A stretch of DNA of 64,000 nucleotides from Luteimonas terrae (GTDB lineage: Bacteria; Pseudomonadota; Gammaproteobacteria; Xanthomonadales; Xanthomonadaceae), in contig NZ_SMTG01000002.1 in assembly GCF_004358165.1 (NCBI RefSeq), positions 558,001-622,000 of the forward strand, in the 5' to 3' direction. How positions within the stretch are numbered: the stretch's first letter is position 1; every line of letters begins with the position of its first letter. The notes beneath the pieces are model-generated. The model worked only from the letters and a program-made list of their open reading frames with translations, ran no database searches and was not told the DNA's origin. Shown in pieces: positions 36,206 to 45,532 of this stretch. A program made the position numbers and the translations under genes.

Positions 36206-39200
36206 ATGAGCACGCCAGCCAACCAGATGCCCGAGCGCGATACCGACACCGCGCCGCTGCGTTTCGTCACCGCCGCCAGCCTGTTCGACGGGCACGACGC
36301 CGCCATCAACATCATGCGCAGGCTCATCCAGTCGCAGGGCGCCGAAGTGGTGCATCTGGGCCACAACCGCAGCGTCGAAGACGTGGTGCGCGCGGCGCTG
36401 CAGGAAGACGCCGACGGCATCGCGCTGTCGAGCTACCAGGGCGGGCACGTCGAGTACTTCAAGTACATGGTCGACATGCTGAAAGAGCGCGGCGCCGGCC
36501 ATATCCGCGTGTTCGGCGGCGGTGGCGGCACGATCACGCCCGAGGAAATCCGCGAGCTGCAGGGTTACGGCGTCGAGCGCATCTATCACCCCAACGACGG
36601 CATGAAGATGGGCCTCGTCGAGATGATCGAGGACGTCGTCCAGCGCGCCCGCAACGGTCGCGACGCCGCCAACCGCGACGCCGCCGGCACCACGCCCGGC
36701 ATCGACGACGAGATCGGCATTGGCCGCGTGCTGTCGCAGATCGAAGCCGGCGATCTCAACGAAGCCGAACTCTCCAGGCTGCGCAAGACCTGGCAGCTCG
36801 CCGGTGGCCGCACGCCGGTCATCGGCATCACCGGCACCGGCGGCGCGGGCAAGTCCTCGGTCACCGACGAACTGCTCAACCGCTTCCTCGCCAGCTTCCC
36901 CGAGATGCGCATCGCGGTGATCTCCGTCGATCCCACGCGTCGCCGCACCGGTGGCGCGCTGCTGGGCGACCGCATCCGCATGAACTCGCTGCGCAGCCAC
37001 CGCGTCTACATGCGCTCGATGGCCACGCGCCGCCAGAACGTCGCCACCAATGCGGTGCTCAAGGACTGCATCGGCTTCCTCAAGGGTCTGGCCTTCGATC
37101 TGGTGATCGTGGAAACCGCTGGCATCGGCCAGTCGGACTCGGAAATCGTCGACCTCGTCGACTTCCCCGTGTACGTCATGACCAGCGACTACGGCGCGGC
37201 CAGCCAGCTCGAGAAGATCGACATGATCGACTACGCCGAGCTGATCGTGCTCAACAAGTACGACCGCCGCGGCGCCGAGGACGCATTGCGCGACATCCGC
37301 AAGCAGTGGAAGCGCAACCGCGTCGCGTTCCAGACCGCCGACGCCGACGTGCCGGTGTATCCCACCATCGCCAGCCAGTTCAACGATCCCGGCGTGAGCT
37401 GGATGTTCGAGAACCTGTGCCGCCTGCTGCGCGAGAAGACCGGCGCCGGCAGCAGCGAGCGCTGCGACTTCACCCCGCGCATCGACACCACCCTCAAGGA
37501 ACCGCGCGCCACGGTGCTGATCCCCGGCAGCCGCGTGCGCTATCTGGCGGAAATCGCCGAGCAGGGGCGCCGCATCAACACCGACATCGGCCGCCAGGCC
37601 GAAGCCGCCGACCGCGCGCAAGCGATGTGGCAGGCCCTGAACGAACTCGCCGATCCCCAGCTTCCGAAGGCCTTGGACCTCTACAGCGCCGACCATCTGC
37701 TTGGCACCTCTCCCCCTGCGGGAGAGGTCGGCGCGCACAGCGCGCCGGGAGAGGGGGCAGCGGCCGTCGTCGACAGCCCGTCCCCGGCCGTCCCCGCAGA
37801 ACCCGTCCAGGCTGGCACCGCGCCCGCCGCCGACCGTTCGCTGCTCACCCTGCGCCAGCGCTACAACGACGCCATCCAGTCCCTCAGCAGCGAATCGCTC
37901 AAGCTCCTGCGCGACTGGCCCCAGCGCCTGAAATCCATCACCGACGAATTCACCGAGTACCAGGTGCGCAGCAAGTCGATCAAGGTCGACAACTACCGCG
38001 ACTCGCTGAGCCACCAGAAGATCCCCAAGATCGCCGCGCCCACCTACAAGAGCTGGGGCGAGCTGCTGACCTTCCTCGGCAAGGAGAACCTGCCGGGCAG
38101 CTATCCCTACACCGGCGGCGTGTACCCATATCGCCGCACCGGCGAAGACCCCATCCGCATGTTCGCGGGCGAGGGCACGCCCGAGCGCACCAACCGCCGC
38201 TTCCATTACCTGTCCGTCGGCCAGCCGGCCGCGCGCCTGTCCACCGCCTTCGACAGCGTCACGCTGTACGGCGAAGACCCGGCGCCGCGCCCGGACATCT
38301 ACGGCAAGATCGGCAACTCGGGCGTCAACATCCCCACGCTCGACGACATGAAGAAGCTCTATTCCGGCTTCGACCTGTGCGCGCCCACCACCAGCGTCTC
38401 GATGACCATCAACGGCCCGGCGCCGATGATTCTGGCGATGTTCATGAACTGCGCCGTCGACCAGCAGGTGGAGAAATACCTCAAGGCCGACGACGCCCGC
38501 TGGGCCGAGGCGCAGAAGGCGATGGACGCCTTCTTCGAAGGTCGCGAGCGTCCGCGCTACCACGGCGAACTGCCGCCCACGAACGACGGCCTCGGCCTCG
38601 GCCTGCTGGGCGTCTCCGGCGACCAGCTCGTCGATGCCGAGACCTACGCCCGCATCAAGGCCGAGACCCTCGCCACCGTGCGCGGCACCGTGCAGGCCGA
38701 CATCCTGAAAGAGGACCAGGCCCAGAACACCTGCATCTTCAGCACCGAGTTCGCGCTGCGGATGATGGGCGACATCCAGCAGTACTTCGTGGACCAGAAG
38801 GTCCGCAACTTCTACTCGGTCTCCATCTCCGGCTATCACATCGCCGAAGCCGGCGCGAACCCGATCAGCCAGCTCGCCTTCACCCTGAGCAACGGCTTCA
38901 CCATCGTCGAGTACTACCTCGCGCGCGGCATGAAGGTGGACGACTTCGCGCCCAACCTGTCGTTCTTCTTCTCCAACGGCATGGACCCCGAGTACACCGT
39001 CATCGGCCGCGTCGCCCGCCGCATCTGGGCCCGCGCCATGCGCGAGCGCTACGGCGCCAACGAACGCAGCCAGATGATGAAGTACCACATCCAGACCAGC
39101 GGCCGGTCCCTACACGCGCAGGAGATCCAGTTCAACGACATCCGCACCACTCTGCAGGCGCTCTACGCCCTGTTCGACAACTGCAACAGCCTGCACACCA

Positions 39201-39859
39201 ACGCCTACGACGAAGCCATCACCACGCCGACCGAAGAAAGCGTGCGCCGCGCCGTTGCCATCCAGATGATCATCAACAAGGAAATGGGGCTCAACTTCAT
39301 CGAGAACCCCTGGCAGGGCAGCTTCGCCGTCGACTACCTCACCGACATCGTCGAAGAGGCCGTCTACAAGGAGTTCGAAGCCATCAGCGAGCGCGGCGGC
39401 GTGCTGGGCGCCATGGACACCATGTACCAGCGCGGCAAGATCCAGGAAGAGTCCATGTACTACGAGCACAAGAAGCACGACGGCTCGTTGCCCCTGGTGG
39501 GCGTGAACATGTTCCTGCCCAAGGAAGGCGGCGGCGAAGTCGCCACCGAAATCGAACTGATCCGCAGCACCGAGGAGGAGAAAGGGCAGCAGATCGCCAA
39601 CGTGCAGGCTTGGCAGACCACCCGCAATGCCGTTGTTCTGCCCCTTCCCCCGCAAGCGGGGGAAGGCCGGGATGGGGGCGCCCTTGGCGCAGACTCAAGC
39701 GACGTGTCAGAGACCGAGCACCTGTCGTATCTTCAGCGCACCGCCCGCGAGCGCAAGAATGTGTTCGCGGCGCTGATGGAAGCGGTCAAGACGCACAGTC
39801 TGGGGCAGATCAGTCATGCGTTGTATGACGTGGGTGGAGAATATCGGCGAAATATGTAG
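36206..39859 (+). CDS. icmF: IcmF, isobutyryl-CoA mutase fused to its G-protein chaperone
   Basis: A 1217-residue protein. Residues about 15-140 form the B12-binding domain with the [12 protein letters not shown] cobalamin motif. A MeaI-type G-protein domain follows, with Walker [10 protein letters not shown] (Lys216), [12 protein letters not shown] and NKYD. The large radical mutase domain runs from about 560 to the end ([50 protein letters not shown]). It rearranges isobutyryl- and n-butyryl-CoA, with GTPase-guided cofactor loading. It is longer than the roughly 1,090 residues usual for the family because two repeat-derived segments, near residues 501-519 and 1146-1159, are read in frame. 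AGGAG at 36195 supports the start. Confidence 0.93.
37707..37756. repeat. REP-like repeat inside icmF, linker position
   Basis: CCTCTCCC-CCTGC-GGGAGAGG is followed by GGCGCGC-ACA-GCGCGCC and GGGAGAGGGG, a palindromic repeat of the intergenic type. It is translated in frame as about residues 501-517 ([17 protein letters not shown]) between the G-protein and mutase domains, then a Pro/Ala-rich stretch. Confidence 0.75.
39641..39680. repeat. BIME family 3 unit inside icmF, near the 3' end
   Basis: CCCCTTCCCCCGC-AA-GCGGGGGAAGG followed by CCGGGATGGGGGCG is identical in type to the intergenic units at 30066 and 55314. It is read in frame as [13 protein letters not shown] within the C-terminal part of IcmF, before the conserved helix ending [16 protein letters not shown]. 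Confidence 0.8.
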
Positions 39860-39942
39860 GTTGTCGCATAAAGTTTAGCTGATTTCAATTTTAGACTGCG
39901 TCTAGTTAACACTAAAGTCGAGCCCAAGCTCAGGGAGGAAGA

Positions 39943-42927
39943 GTGGCGGTCAATGGATTGCAGGGCGTGAGTCTCGGAGATCTGTATAAGGCTTATCGAA
40001 AATCAAAGGCTGATGCTTACTATGACCGAGGGCACTTTCATTCACTTGCTTATGCCGAGTATGAGATCAACCTTGAAGCCAATCTAAAGTCGCTTCTGGC
40101 ATCGCTAAAGAAGGACTTCTCTTGGGCACAGTCCAAGTCGTTCTTAGGAGTCTTCTCTTACCAGCCCAAAAGCGTCGATGTCCCCGCTTCTAATTCAGCT
40201 CAAGAGATACATTTTGCCACTCTCGATCCTGTCAGGGACTGGATAAATTCGAATAAAGGGAGGAAGTTGCTATCCGCGAATTTTAGAGTCGTCATTGTTG
40301 CTTCGATAAATTATCAGGTCGTATGCGCACTATGGATAATTAAAGTCGGCCATAAGTTCGACGATAGAATTGATCGGAAGTTGGCTTTTGCGCACGCTTT
40401 GAAGCGCGTCGGTCGCCGAGGGAGGCTTAACGAGGATTCTCATCAGCTTTTCGCGCCTTACTTTTCGGGCTACAGGGCTTGGCGGTCAAAAGCTTTAGAG
40501 GCCATGAGAAGCTCACTGAACGATGGCCGCTCCATCGTAGCAATTACGATGGACATAAAATCCTTTTACCACCAGGTGTCCCCTAATTTTTTGGTAAAGA
40601 GCGCATTCTTTAAAAAGCTTGAGATAGAGCTTGACCCAGATGAGCTTGCTTTCAGTAAGGCTATTGTCGAAAGCATGCAGACGTGGCACCGAAGCACCCC
40701 TGAGGCTAAAGATCGACCGGAAGGCTCACTCCCCGTCGGCTTGTCGATATCAAAGTTAGTATCCAACGTGCTTCTCGCCGATTTCGACAAGGCAGTCAGC
40801 TCTTTACCATCGACAATCCATTACGGACGCTATGCTGACGACATTATTCTCGTTACAGAAGATCCCGGTATTTCTACTGGCCAAGACTACATCAAGTGGT
40901 TGCGATGGTCCTTGGATGAGTACTTGGTGCTAGACCAGACTTCGAATCCGGCTGGACTTAAGCTAAAGCTAAACTATTCGACAGATAGTGAGATAATATT
41001 TTCAGCGAAAAAGCAGAAAATATTCTTTCTGAGTGGTGAGCACGGTTTGGATTTGGTAGGGCAGGTAGAAGAGCAGATAAGAAAGCAATCAAGTGAGTAT
41101 AGGTTGCTTCCAGAGTTGCCAGATAATGATTCCGAGATGCTTGCGTCTGCGCTGCTGGCTACTCCAGATGCGAGATTGGAAGCGGATGCTTTAAGAAAAG
41201 CGGAAGCTGTTTCCTTGAGGCGTCTTGGCTTTTCAATGCTGCTTAGCGATTTTGAAGCTTACGCTCGTGATCTGGACTATAAAGATCCGAAGTGGACACT
41301 TGCGAGGAAAAAGTTCTATGCAGTTGTGGGCAGGTATTTGGTCACTCCTGTCGGTTTTTTTGACTACTATACTTATATAGTTAGGGTTTTTGGATTGATG
41401 GTTGCGTGCCGTGATTTCGCAGATGCTCGATTAATCCTCGGGCAGCTTGAAAGAATTGGGGAGGTTCTGCAGTCTACGACCACCGCCGGAACTAGAAATT
41501 TGTCAAAGTACTTCCATGCTAGGCGGAATTACTATCGTGGCTTTGTGCAGGCGGCTTTGGAGAGCTCCACCGTCGCCGCCTTTGAGTTTAATTCAAAATT
41601 TACTAATTTTTTGAAAGGGCTTGCTGCAGAAGCCGATGTCGAGGTTGTTGACGGAAAGCATATTAAGGAGATTTCCAAGAGACTCTTGCTCTCTGACCTA
41701 GGTAGGCGCTGCTACCAAGATTATTGGTACGCAGAGTCTCCTAAGGAAGTGCAGCCTCCGCTTCCAGCAAGTATTTCCGTTAAAAAGGCGCTGGCTCGCA
41801 TTAGGAGCTACCGGAATAAGGCTAAAAAGTCTCTGAGTGCGCCTTATTGGCCCGCAATCGCCTTCCCAACAAGGCCTCCAGCGCTTTGGCAACTGTCTTT
41901 GAGTGTGCCAAAAGCTCTTGAAGAGTCGGGCGGCCTTGAGAGCTTGTTGTGGGCCGTTAGGGGTGGCTACGTCAGATCAGATTATAGGAACTACCGTTTC
42001 CTTTCTGAAGATGAAGCTGGAGAGCGAGTTTGGAATGTTCCAAGTGAGCAAGGGCTGCAAGCGAAGATTGCTGTGCCAAGTATCAAAGTCACAGACGATC
42101 AATGGGCTTCCGCAGTTAAAGGGATGCCGGATCACTCGCTTGATAGGTATCTTGCAACGCGAAAAATTGTTAACGACATGATTCGCGGCTCTTTGGATTT
42201 GAACTACATTGTTTTTCCGGAGCTGTCGATTCCTTATTGGTGGGCTTTGGATATCGCAGCCAAGCTCTCAAGAGCAGGAATCTCATTCGTAGCAGGTGTG
42301 GAGACTCGTGGCAACGGTGATGAGTATAGAAATGATGTGCTTGTCTCTCTCGCAACAGATTTCTACGGACGTAGAGGAAATGTTTGCTTTCTACAGCCAA
42401 AGATTGATCTTTCCCATGAAGAGTCTGCAAATGTAAAGCATTTAGGAAAGAAGTATTTATTAGCTGGCGATGCCGGGTCTAGGCGGCCAGTTTACTGTCA
42501 TGGCGAGTTTGCCATGGGCGTTCTTATCTGTAGCGATCTGACAACAATTCAGAATAGGTCCAGATTTCAAGGTTGCGTAGACGCGTTATTCGTCATTGAG
42601 TGGAATAAAGACATCGAAACATTTGATTTTTTGGTGGAATCAGCAGCTCATGATTTGCATGCCGCTGTGGTCCAAGTGAACAATCGGAGATTCGGAGACA
42701 GCAGAGTTAGAATGCCTTTCGCTGAAGGTTTTAAGCGTGATGTGGTTAAGGTGAAAGGTGGTGATAGCGATTTCTTCGTCCACTGCTCAATTGATGTGGC
42801 GGAGCTGCGGCGTTTTCAGAGGAGGAAGAGCGTCGTCAAGCGAGAAAAGTCCAAGAAGGATGATAAGCCTAAGTTTAAACCGGTTCCTATTGGATATAGA
42901 ATGTCAGACAGGCGAAAAGGAGGCTGA
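39943..42927 (+). CDS. reverse transcriptase-nitrilase fusion (class 1 UG/DRT1-like defence RT)
   Basis: A 994-residue protein starting at GTG 39943 after GGGAGG. The reverse transcriptase part (about residues 150-360) has motif A VAITMDIKSFYHQV (Asp204), a motif B-like block VGLSISKLVSNVLLADF and the catalytic YADD at 297-300. After a helical middle region, the C-terminal part is a carbon-nitrogen hydrolase (nitrilase) domain with the full Glu-Lys-Cys set: Glu760 (VFPELS), Lys820 (LQPKID) and Cys863 (GVLICSDL). This is the architecture of anti-phage DRT type 1 and related class 1 UG enzymes. The gene is far more A+T-rich than its surroundings (21 G/C in the 60 bases from 41341), so it was probably acquired. 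Confidence 0.9.
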   Translation: MAVNGLQGVSLGDLYKAYRKSKADAYYDRGHFHSLAYAEYEINLEANLKSLLASLKKDFSWAQSKSFLGVFSYQPKSVDVPASNSAQEIHFATLDPVRDWINSNKGRKLLSANFRVVIVASINYQVVCALWIIKVGHKFDDRIDRKLAFAHALKRVGRRGRLNEDSHQLFAPYFSGYRAWRSKALEAMRSSLNDGRSIVAITMDIKSFYHQVSPNFLVKSAFFKKLEIELDPDELAFSKAIVESMQTWHRSTPEAKDRPEGSLPVGLSISKLVSNVLLADFDKAVSSLPSTIHYGRYADDIILVTEDPGISTGQDYIKWLRWSLDEYLVLDQTSNPAGLKLKLNYSTDSEIIFSAKKQKIFFLSGEHGLDLVGQVEEQIRKQSSEYRLLPELPDNDSEMLASALLATPDARLEADALRKAEAVSLRRLGFSMLLSDFEAYARDLDYKDPKWTLARKKFYAVVGRYLVTPVGFFDYYTYIVRVFGLMVACRDFADARLILGQLERIGEVLQSTTTAGTRNLSKYFHARRNYYRGFVQAALESSTVAAFEFNSKFTNFLKGLAAEADVEVVDGKHIKEISKRLLLSDLGRRCYQDYWYAESPKEVQPPLPASISVKKALARIRSYRNKAKKSLSAPYWPAIAFPTRPPALWQLSLSVPKALEESGGLESLLWAVRGGYVRSDYRNYRFLSEDEAGERVWNVPSEQGLQAKIAVPSIKVTDDQWASAVKGMPDHSLDRYLATRKIVNDMIRGSLDLNYIVFPELSIPYWWALDIAAKLSRAGISFVAGVETRGNGDEYRNDVLVSLATDFYGRRGNVCFLQPKIDLSHEESANVKHLGKKYLLAGDAGSRRPVYCHGEFAMGVLICSDLTTIQNRSRFQGCVDALFVIEWNKDIETFDFLVESAAHDLHAAVVQVNNRRFGDSRVRMPFAEGFKRDVVKVKGGDSDFFVHCSIDVAELRRFQRRKSVVKREKSKKDDKPKFKPVPIGYRMSDRRKGG

Positions 42928-42948
42928 GTTCTGCGCGTAGAAACTCAC

Positions 42949-43059
42949 GGGGTCAGGTTTACTTATCCAGGGTGACGCCGCGTGAATGGTGACTTAGGCC
43001 AGTCAGGGGGGCGGCATGCGATAGGGATTGAAGCGGGTGGCGCATCGTTACGACGATGC
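42949..43059. repeat. 111-bp island repeat, copy A
   Basis: Starts GGGTCAGGTTTACTTATCC and runs through GGCCAGTCAGGGGGGCGGCA and TTGAAGCGGGTGGCGCATCG to a hairpin, GCATCGT-TACG-ACGATGC. It aligns end to end with copy B at 43838-43953. It begins 22 bases after the reverse transcriptase stop, in the 252-base gap before the 199-residue gene. Confidence 0.85.
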
Positions 43060-43179: not shown

Positions 43180-43779
43180 ATGGAGGTGGTTTCCGGAAAA
43201 GCGCTAGTTACCGGTGCATTGCGGGCTCTCGCCAGTTTTCATAAGGAAACGCGGGCTCGGAAGCGGCTGACATTTGAGAATCACGTTGCGCCTGTTTATG
43301 CGTGGGTCGAGGTGGCGCACACGGATTACATTGCTGGATTCCGTGCTACTAGAGAAAAGATCATTACTTCAGACAAGCCTGATGACGTCTTGAAGTTCTT
43401 AAAAGATATCCGGCGTGGAGCGCTGATGAGTCGAGGGCAAGCGCTAGTTGCTCTTGATAATTTGCTTGACGAGAGCGAGGCGTCAACTAGTGGCCTTCCT
43501 GCTGGATGGTCGTCGGTGAGGCCATTTTACGAGTCTTGTAAGGACTACTTGTATGGTGCTACTGCACCTGCAGCAACCTCGTGGTACACCGAGTACATCA
43601 ATTTTGTTGAAGTGAGCTCAAAGTACATGCCAGGCGATTGTTGGGTGCAAGATGTTTTTGGCAACGACGCTCGCGGAGACCTCCTTTTCGCTATAGAACG
43701 CACCTTGGATCGGCTTGAGCTGAAGTTCCGTGCTGTGACGCAGCAGTACGTGCTTGCTCAACGCAATCTGATTCGATGA
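43180..43779 (+). CDS. unrecognised 199-residue protein between island repeats
   Basis: A soluble, mostly helical protein (ALVTGALRALASFHKETRAR at the start; KSYLYG-like aromatic-rich segments in the middle; FAIERTLDRLELKFRAVTQQ at the end), with no signal peptide or membrane segment. No known domain is recognised. Base composition is intermediate (29 G/C in the 60 bases from 43561), below the chromosome and near the reverse transcriptase gene. Repeat copies A and B lie on its two sides in direct orientation. It may be an accessory or independent defence gene, or cargo of the element. The same strand and position after the reverse transcriptase are suggestive only. Confidence 0.7.
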   Translation: MEVVSGKALVTGALRALASFHKETRARKRLTFENHVAPVYAWVEVAHTDYIAGFRATREKIITSDKPDDVLKFLKDIRRGALMSRGQALVALDNLLDESEASTSGLPAGWSSVRPFYESCKDYLYGATAPAATSWYTEYINFVEVSSKYMPGDCWVQDVFGNDARGDLLFAIERTLDRLELKFRAVTQQYVLAQRNLIR

Positions 43780-43821: not shown

Positions 43822-43837
43822 TAACGGTGCGGCAAGC

Positions 43838-43953
43838 TAACGGTGCCAGGTTCACTTATCTAGGATGACGCCGCGCGAGCGGCGACGTAGGCCAGTCAGG
43901 GGGACGGCATGCGACAAGGATTGAAGCGGGTGGCGCATCGTCGGGGACGATGC
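43838..43953. repeat. 111-bp island repeat, copy B
   Basis: TAAC then GGTGCCAGGTTCACTTATCT, an internal hairpin CGCCGC-GCGA-GCGGCG, GGCCAGTCAGGGGGACGGCA, TTGAAGCGGGTGGCGCATCG and a terminal hairpin GCATCGTC-GGG-GACGATGC. The terminal stem differs from copy A but is still paired, so structure is kept. The nuclease-domain gene starts eleven bases after it. Confidence 0.85.
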
Positions 43954-43963
43954 GCTGACAGCG

Positions 43964-44809
43964 GTGCGGTGGGACCGGCTGGAGCATCTGCTCGCCGCGT
44001 ATTACCGGGATGCGGGGTATCAGGTCACACACGTGGGGACGGGCGCGACGGCCGGTCGATTCGACGGCGGTGTCGATCTGGAGCTGCGGCGCGACGGACG
44101 GCTGGTGCTGGTGCAGGTCAAGCACTGGAACGCGTGCCAAGTGCCGCACAACGACGTGCATCAACTGATCGGCGTGATGGTCAATGCCAGGGCCGATGGC
44201 GCGATCGTCGTGACCAGCGGCGAGTTCACCCGCGCAGCCATCGAAGCCGCCGCCAGGAACGCTCAGGTCCAACTGATCGACGGCGACGAGCTCCGCGCCA
44301 TGCTCGGCCCGCTGCCGGACGCGCCGCCCGTCGCAACGCGCACCGCCGACACACTGGCCGCCCAGGTCGGCGAACACCAGTTGAACGCCGCGATCAGTCG
44401 CGCCGTGCCTGCCGGGCGCAAGGCCGCGAAGTCGTATGCCAAGGCGACCGCAACAGCGCTGCTGCTGAAGGCGTTCGCCTTCGTTGCAATCATGCTGATT
44501 GGCTATCAGGTCATCCAGGCCAGCTTCCGCAATCTGGGCGAAAGCCTGAAGGACATCGGCAAGCCGACCGTCTCTGCGTCGCAGCGCTCGACACCGACCA
44601 CTCAATTGGCGCCTTCACGCGCGGTCGTTTCGGCAACTCCGGCGGTCCACAACTTCTGTATCGAACGCGATCCGCGTACGGGCATGAGCGTCGATCGCTG
44701 CGTCGAGCACGCCACACGCCCCAAGCCGACGATCGCCGAAGTCCGCGAGTCCCAGCGCAAGGCAGATGCCGCGATGGAGGTGCTGCGGCATTCCACACCC
44801 GAGATGTGA
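43964..44809 (+). CDS. Mrr-type restriction endonuclease domain protein with membrane segment
   Basis: A 281-residue protein starting at GTG 43964. The Mrr catalytic fold is at the extreme N-terminus: GRFDGGVDLELRRDGRLVLVQVKHW has Asp38 and the Gln51-Val-Lys53 pair. IVVTSGEFTRAAIEAAARN and LIDGDEL follow. A transmembrane helix spans about 165-184, and the C-terminal tail has Cys-containing motifs. In better known relatives, membrane helices usually precede the nuclease domain. Here the frame is closed by a stop 42 bases upstream, inside repeat B, so the N-terminus may have been lost. It probably cuts DNA, but targets and control are unknown. Confidence 0.78.
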   Translation: MRWDRLEHLLAAYYRDAGYQVTHVGTGATAGRFDGGVDLELRRDGRLVLVQVKHWNACQVPHNDVHQLIGVMVNARADGAIVVTSGEFTRAAIEAAARNAQVQLIDGDELRAMLGPLPDAPPVATRTADTLAAQVGEHQLNAAISRAVPAGRKAAKSYAKATATALLLKAFAFVAIMLIGYQVIQASFRNLGESLKDIGKPTVSASQRSTPTTQLAPSRAVVSATPAVHNFCIERDPRTGMSVDRCVEHATRPKPTIAEVRESQRKADAAMEVLRHSTPEM

Positions 44810-45248: not shown

Positions 45249-45342
45249 AACGGTGCCAGGATTAACGGTGCCAGGTTCACTTACTCAGGCTGACGCTGCG
45301 GAAGTCGCGACGTCGGCCAGTCAAGGGGGCGGGATGCGACAT
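45249..45342. repeat. island repeat copy C with duplicated 5' motif
   Basis: TAACGGTGCCAGGAT (45249) is followed at once by TAACGGTGCCAGGTTCACTT (45264), CTGACGCTGC, GGCCAGTCAAGGGGGCGGGA and GCGACA, a shortened, diverged copy lacking the terminal hairpin. A further fragment, CTAACCGGGTCAGGCTCACTT, follows at 45347. It occupies the 336-base gap before the RraB-like gene, which otherwise holds no gene. Confidence 0.75.
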
Positions 45343-45532
45343 GCGGCTAACCGGGTCAGGCTCACTTGTCCGGTCGGTTGTGAGTCACCCCTGCTTCCCG
45401 GGCTCAAGGGACGGTGGAGCCCCAGCCGGTTACGACAATGTCACCCGTGACGCCCTCGGTAGGCAGGCATCAGCTGATGTCCGATACTCGCCCTGCGCCA
45501 GATCCAGGCGCCAACACGGCGTGCCCGGTTTC

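Follow-up and report, generated by a model that had tools for sequence, protein, structure and literature searches.

Reverse transcriptases (RTs) of the UG/Abi group that are fused to a nitrilase or a phosphohydrolase are assigned to class 3 in PMC13275509, where the action of one of them, DRT1, is described: it synthesizes DNA without a template by priming on Ser402, its tetramers and filaments depend on DNA, its C-terminal lid covers the nitrilase site of a neighbouring subunit (K1219 and A1223 are essential), and both active sites are needed for a defence that works by abortive infection. What the same paper reports for DRT5S and DRT5L is limited to in vitro DNA synthesis, which is covalent and needs no template. 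Here we describe a gene that very probably constitutes a single-protein anti-phage system of the related UG5-nitrilase type, as judged from sequence comparison and analogy; it is located at 39943–42927 (+ strand) of a 64,000-nt stretch of the Luteimonas terrae genome (contig NZ_SMTG01000002.1, positions 558,001–622,000), which is called the window below. We read DRT5S and DRT5L as the small and large forms of UG5, because they belong to class 3 and carry the S/L naming. In an older numbering, the name DRT5 was presumably given to another RT (UG16). If so, the remark in PMC13213688 and PMC13314766 that the mechanism of DRT5 is not established may not concern the UG5 family.

The gene starts with GTG, is open through 994 codons and is present as a single copy in the assembly. 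Its product joins in one chain an RT palm, matched by Pfam RVT_1 at residues 161–308 (40423–40866; 35.3 bits, cut-off 29.6), and a nitrilase-superfamily domain, which the structure model places at residues 703–986 (42049–42900). The palm carries D204 (codon 40552–40554) and Y297-A-D299-D300 (YADD, codons 40831–40842), and the nitrilase domain carries E760 (at 42220), K820 (42400), E827 (42421) and C863 (42529), all on the + strand. With position 298 of YADD excepted, these residues are invariant in 203 of 203 full-length rows of our alignment and in 191 of 191 representatives with less than 95% identity; the count for YxDD is to some extent a product of the search itself, as YxDD was part of the patterns that found the loci of the genome-contig scan. 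The rows consist of the window protein, 116 proteins from the database search and 86 open reading frames (ORFs) taken from the retrieved loci; of all rows, 199 are distinct, four represent the same genome twice (the window's own included), and six shorter ORFs were left out. The initial annotation of this DNA had placed the RT and nitrilase residues (Asp204, YADD at 297–300, Glu760, Lys820 and Cys863) exactly where we find them, and a structure prediction, in which the lack of a nitrilase fold was to have refuted its reading, gives a nitrilase fold as well as an RT fold for the protein. Its view of an A+T-rich gene in a G+C-rich chromosome also holds, with a GC content of 0.470 (0.482 at third codon positions) for the gene versus 0.65–0.73 for most 1-kb blocks of the window. 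The solved DRT1 structure (PDB 9YFD) was not among the 50 matches listed in either structure search, whose library ends at 2026-04-08, so that the fold is not judged by this result.

The family assignment rests on profile scores and on a tree of RT cores. The PADLOC profile RT_UG5-nitrilase (PDLC03780) matches the protein with 854.7 bits over residues 5–992 of 994 and profile positions 17–897 of 907, and the second-best RT family in this search reaches 134.7 bits. In the tree of 54 rows, the window protein stands together with 35 other UG5-nitrilase rows (support 87/89), within a subclade of 11 rows (100/99), and seven DRT1 rows form a separate group (99/97). UG5-small is represented by a single row, which sits on a long branch and is weakly attached. 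The three retron rows and the five rows of other RTs are set apart, with weak deep splits (61/34); these five rows are unlabelled and none is known as a group II RT, and one UG17 row (from L234) was dropped because it did not match the motif filter. When the profile search and the RT tree proposed by the initial annotation were thus run, the gene fell within UG5, and the retron rows grouped apart as far as the weak deep split can tell. The proposed unusual motif B, and with it a new subgroup, did not survive the comparison: at residues 263–271 the window protein reads LPVGLSISK, which is ordinary because its relatives read LPVGLSASK, LPVGLPASA, IPVGLSASK, LPVGLSASR and similar, and the tree shows no separate subgroup. 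From the profile score and the tree position we therefore regard the protein as UG5, neither UG1 nor a new subgroup, and its membership appears virtually certain. It is a class 3 UG/Abi RT by the classification told in PMC13275509, which puts the nitrilase-bearing UG RTs there and not in class 1, where they had been filed. Two further RT types were tried and rejected, the retron RTs (NF038233, 46.1 bits against a cut-off of 235) and the group II intron RTs or maturases (TIGR04416, 35 bits against a cut-off of 300).

The initial annotation held the protein to be DRT1-like, and a true DRT1 (UG1) enzyme would indeed have the identical architecture; moreover, among solved structures the closest in sequence is DRT1 9yfd (E 5.4e-7), and a comparison of the UG5 and DRT1 profiles gives a probability of 98.1 across the RT part. 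This filing is nevertheless refuted at the family level, and we consider it hardly credible. The Drt1a profile gives only 86.9 bits on our protein, in two stretches (the best at 738–972), against the aforementioned UG5-nitrilase score; in a whole-genome Drt1a search the gene appears as pieces of 50.7 and 40.2 bits, whereas two true DRT1 loci of the Stenotrophomonas/Rhodanobacteraceae type reach 1413 and 1233 bits. The DRT1 rows have their own group in the tree, and DRT1 proteins have about 1,270 aa, so that the window protein is about 280 residues shorter. What DRT1 shares with it, besides an RT and a nitrilase in one chain, is an invariant serine about 27–29 residues past the motif-D Lys and a K-x-x-P-x-G tail; filaments, lid and trigger are features described for DRT1, which the window protein would have by analogy. 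The closest likeness is to UG5-nitrilase itself (by our reading DRT5L of PMC13275509), with a full-length match, the same order of RT, helical part and nitrilase, the same catalytic residues and the same length class. No feature sets the window protein apart from this family, and it is thus ordinary in kind, a well-matched member of an already named family. UG5-small with a separate nitrilase (PDLC03781; example locus L171 in genome G308) has a related RT and nitrilase and keeps the serine and a K-P-x-P tail, but it uses two genes instead of one, and the tail Gly is not kept in that example. AbiK, which PMC13275509 places in class 1, is without a nitrilase; proteins of an AbiK-type comparison group matched the predicted RT and helical part of our protein in Foldseek.

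The closest protein found by the database search has 96% identity (P0001, from a metagenome), followed by proteins with 63%, 60% and 59%. A scan of genome contigs based on the single protein gave 12 pattern matches and no confirmed relative; a scan based on the alignment gave 390 confirmed relatives, the best 80 of which were used. Viral contigs gave 110 confirmed matches, and among the 80 of these that were retained only four (L082–L085) align over a long stretch, two of them (L082 and L083) with 40–42% identity to the window protein, the others being RT pieces. Ten plasmid records match, five of them nearly full-length at 29–32% identity, and no match to the protein was found in 50,697 phage records. 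Within the genus, the gene was found in none of the 36 other congeners searched, and the only one of 61 relatives in all that has it is the window's own genome.

This scattered gene lies in a place that is itself variable. Its left flank is icmF, encoding a fused isobutyryl-CoA mutase (36206–39859, + strand; NF045497, 1634 bits), and the slot between the icmF stop and a repeat called R1 (39860–42940) has a GC content of 0.469. We took the DNA 3′ of icmF from 44 of 51 other congeners and defined the first cargo as an ORF on the + strand that encodes 120 aa or more and starts at most 450 nt from icmF, which gave 38 loci; in two of them (L275 and L287) a small first ORF was skipped and the following ORF was used, and six loci were dropped, five for want of such an ORF (L269, L271, L277, L284 and L288) and one at a contig end (L303). 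The 38 cargo proteins form 33 clusters, with a median GC content of 0.506 for their genes and 35 of the 38 below 0.60. Within the genus, the AT-rich slot at the icmF 3′ end is hypervariable in its gene content. PADLOC matches at E ≤ 1e-20 were found for 14 of the 38 first cargo proteins, namely MzaC, NsnB/PDC-M55A, RT_UG17, PDC-M01A/PtuA, a retron RT of type I-B, PDC-S28, PtuA, NsnA, HEC-01A/AbiLi, two methyltransferases, PtuA again, a SIR2 and a dGTPase; one batch of eight first-cargo proteins gave no match at this threshold. For control genes from the window the count is at most 3 of 36 (Fisher p 0.005). Two points weigh against too strong a reading of this difference: selection by high GC3 biases the control genes to housekeeping genes, and the dGTPase and both methyltransferases may well have roles other than defence. 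The RT-nitrilase gene is a recent acquisition at a site where defence-like genes are frequent, and we accept the earlier view of it as an acquired, intact defence candidate. The 24 first cargo genes without a match at the above threshold could be unknown defence genes. In the papers searched, isobutyryl-CoA mutase was not named together with a defence hotspot, and among the matches listed by broader searches no title or abstract opening concerned icmF.

The right border of the slot is marked by a 108-nt repeat with three copies, at 42941–43048 (R1), 43834–43941 (R2) and 45259–45366 (100, 86 and 68% identical), R1 and R2 lying on the + strand and R1 beginning 13 nt past the RT-nitrilase stop. 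At E ≤ 0.001, R2 is the sole other copy in the genome of a 132-base stretch containing R1. R2 stands directly upstream, as its leader, of a restriction-endonuclease-like gene with a Pfam Mrr_cat domain (43964–44809, + strand), the right neighbour, which 11 of the 44 congener loci retain. The repeat is the leader of the mrr-like gene, and as R1 it now flanks the RT gene. In six congeners (L231, L233, L265, L268, L272 and L302) the R element ends 2–9 nt before the mrr-like gene, which is tandemly duplicated in L265 and L231. An R-like stretch is present downstream of the slot in 12 congener loci and the window, matching over at least 70 nt in 7 of the 12, and the slot GC content is 0.47–0.55 in all 13. 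A second, partial icmF 3′ piece lies downstream of the cargo in L269, L297 and L301, and such pieces would fit a swapping of cargo by recombination through icmF. To the right of the window slot, no icmF 3′ remnant was found beyond short dispersed repeats. One short dispersed repeat, at about 39640–39680 inside the icmF frame, has many copies in this genome and in congeners.

The same position has been used by UG5 genes in other genera. We compared 84 UG5-type loci, consisting of the best 80 of the 390 relatives from named genomes and four viral contigs. A tblastn match to the window protein (E ≤ 1e-20) is present in 82 of the 84, and three include icmF in the fetched flank, each with its UG5 gene directly at the icmF 3′ end. 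In Thermomonas haemolytica and Lysobacter prati it lies on the same strand as icmF within about 120 nt, and in Rhodanobacter panaciterrae it is convergent with icmF within about 30 nt. These are three of the five loci assigned to Lysobacterales; 12 of the 80 loci have no assigned order. UG5 identities are 41% between the window and Rhodanobacter, 33% between the window and Thermomonas and 74% between Thermomonas and Lysobacter, and therefore at least three lineages reached the icmF 3′ end.

Two conserved elements of the protein suggest how it may act. Ser384 (codon 41092–41094, + strand) is the only S, T or Y between residues 301 and 700 that is identical in all 203 rows, and in all of them it sits 27 residues past the motif-D Lys357; in DRT1, the distance from the motif-D Lys to the invariant serine is 27 residues in 30 of 31 rows and 28 residues in the remaining row, and in an enlarged DRT1 alignment (35 rows) a Photobacterium protein near 9YFD has a shifted serine, as 9YFD itself does. 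The UG5-small RT has N-G-S-D-F-R-L-L-P where the window has Q-S-S-E-Y-R-L-L-P. The C-terminal K979-P-x-P982-x-G984 motif (42877–42894, + strand) is nearly invariant (K in 200, P982 in 201 and G in 197 of 203 rows), and the DRT1 tail has the same K-x-x-P-x-G spacing (K and P in 31 and G in 30 of 31 rows). The chance that Ser384 is the protein primer seems to us about even, and a lid like that described for DRT1 in PMC13275509 is a somewhat favoured role for the tail. We read the serine and the tail as candidate shared parts of one mechanism, neither being proven.

By analogy with DRT1, the RT itself would provide the serine, with Ser384 as the likeliest one, to which it adds deoxynucleoside triphosphates without an RNA template, and would thereby produce short covalent single-stranded DNA. 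The DNA adduct would lead to oligomers of the nitrilase domains and keep them dormant, with the C-terminal K-x-x-P-x-G tail of one subunit shutting the active site of the next. Upon phage infection the lid would come free, and the Cys863 nitrilase would then attack an essential metabolite, so that the cell stops before phage release. We judge protein-primed, template-free DNA synthesis by this protein to be likely, and the whole chain up to the nitrilase effector a shade less so. Several points weigh against this mechanism. PMC13275509 states that the DRT1 priming serine S402 is unconserved in other class 3 DRTs, and 'UG5' is not printed in that paper. The serine spacing in the solved DRT1 9YFD is 29 by our reading, not 27, and profile alignments leave Ser384 unpaired with the DRT1 serine, L-S-G 363–365 standing opposite with low weight; the pairing is therefore based on spacing and invariance. 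The block holding Ser384 has a predicted local distance difference test (pLDDT) score of about 67 in the model, and Pfam CN_hydrolase stays below its cut-off on the nitrilase part (14.3 vs 23.2 bits). The broadest reading, in which UG1 and UG5 would share one mechanism, with an invariant serine that primes DNA and a K-x-x-P-x-G tail as swapped lid, and in which the Lysobacterales icmF 3′ end would be an order-wide slot with repeated single-gene defence swaps, is tentative, falling a little short of an even chance as a whole; its serine-priming part contradicts the aforementioned statement on S402.

Other explanations of the locus can be weighed against this one. The RT could copy a noncoding RNA, as class 2 DRTs and retrons do, and its palm does resemble Drt3a and retron RTs by profile; on the other hand, the gap from icmF to the start codon is just 83 nt, Rfam gives no match apart from one sub-threshold chance match inside the gene, the flanks of the gene match none of the other UG5 loci compared, and DNA synthesis by DRT5S and DRT5L needs no added template and proceeds in the presence of RNase A, according to PMC13275509. 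We therefore hold a template RNA to be quite improbable. An RT of a mobile element, domesticated or decaying and with no role in defence, would fit the AT-rich composition and the patchy occurrence, but the frame and the catalytic residues are intact, the slot is otherwise filled by diverse, defence-like genes, and the aforementioned phage records hold no match, all of which makes this origin unlikely. Lastly, the next gene downstream, which encodes a 199-aa protein (43180–43779) predicted to form a helical bundle (pLDDT 75.9), might supply a needed partner in a two-gene system, as drt1b does beside some drt1 genes. Its position on the same strand and its low GC content (0.514) suit such a pairing; R1, however, separates the two genes, no relative of the 199-aa protein stands beside the other UG5 loci compared, the sole match being the window's own genome, and with the window included just nine relatives were found, the eight others being database proteins of 117–199 aa. 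Within the order, it occurs in 1 of 398 genomes, the window's own, and in none of the 397 others, and we give the two-gene system very little credence. The preferred reading thus remains a single UG5-nitrilase protein acting by itself in defence.

Next to the metabolic gene icmF, each of several closely related species carries a different AT-rich gene, and the unlabelled cargo genes found there make a short list of candidate unknown defence systems. For the UG5 branch, the invariant serine and the near-invariant tail are candidates for primer and lid that can be mutated, and they would show whether the 'DNA adduct as safety catch' of DRT1 is general.
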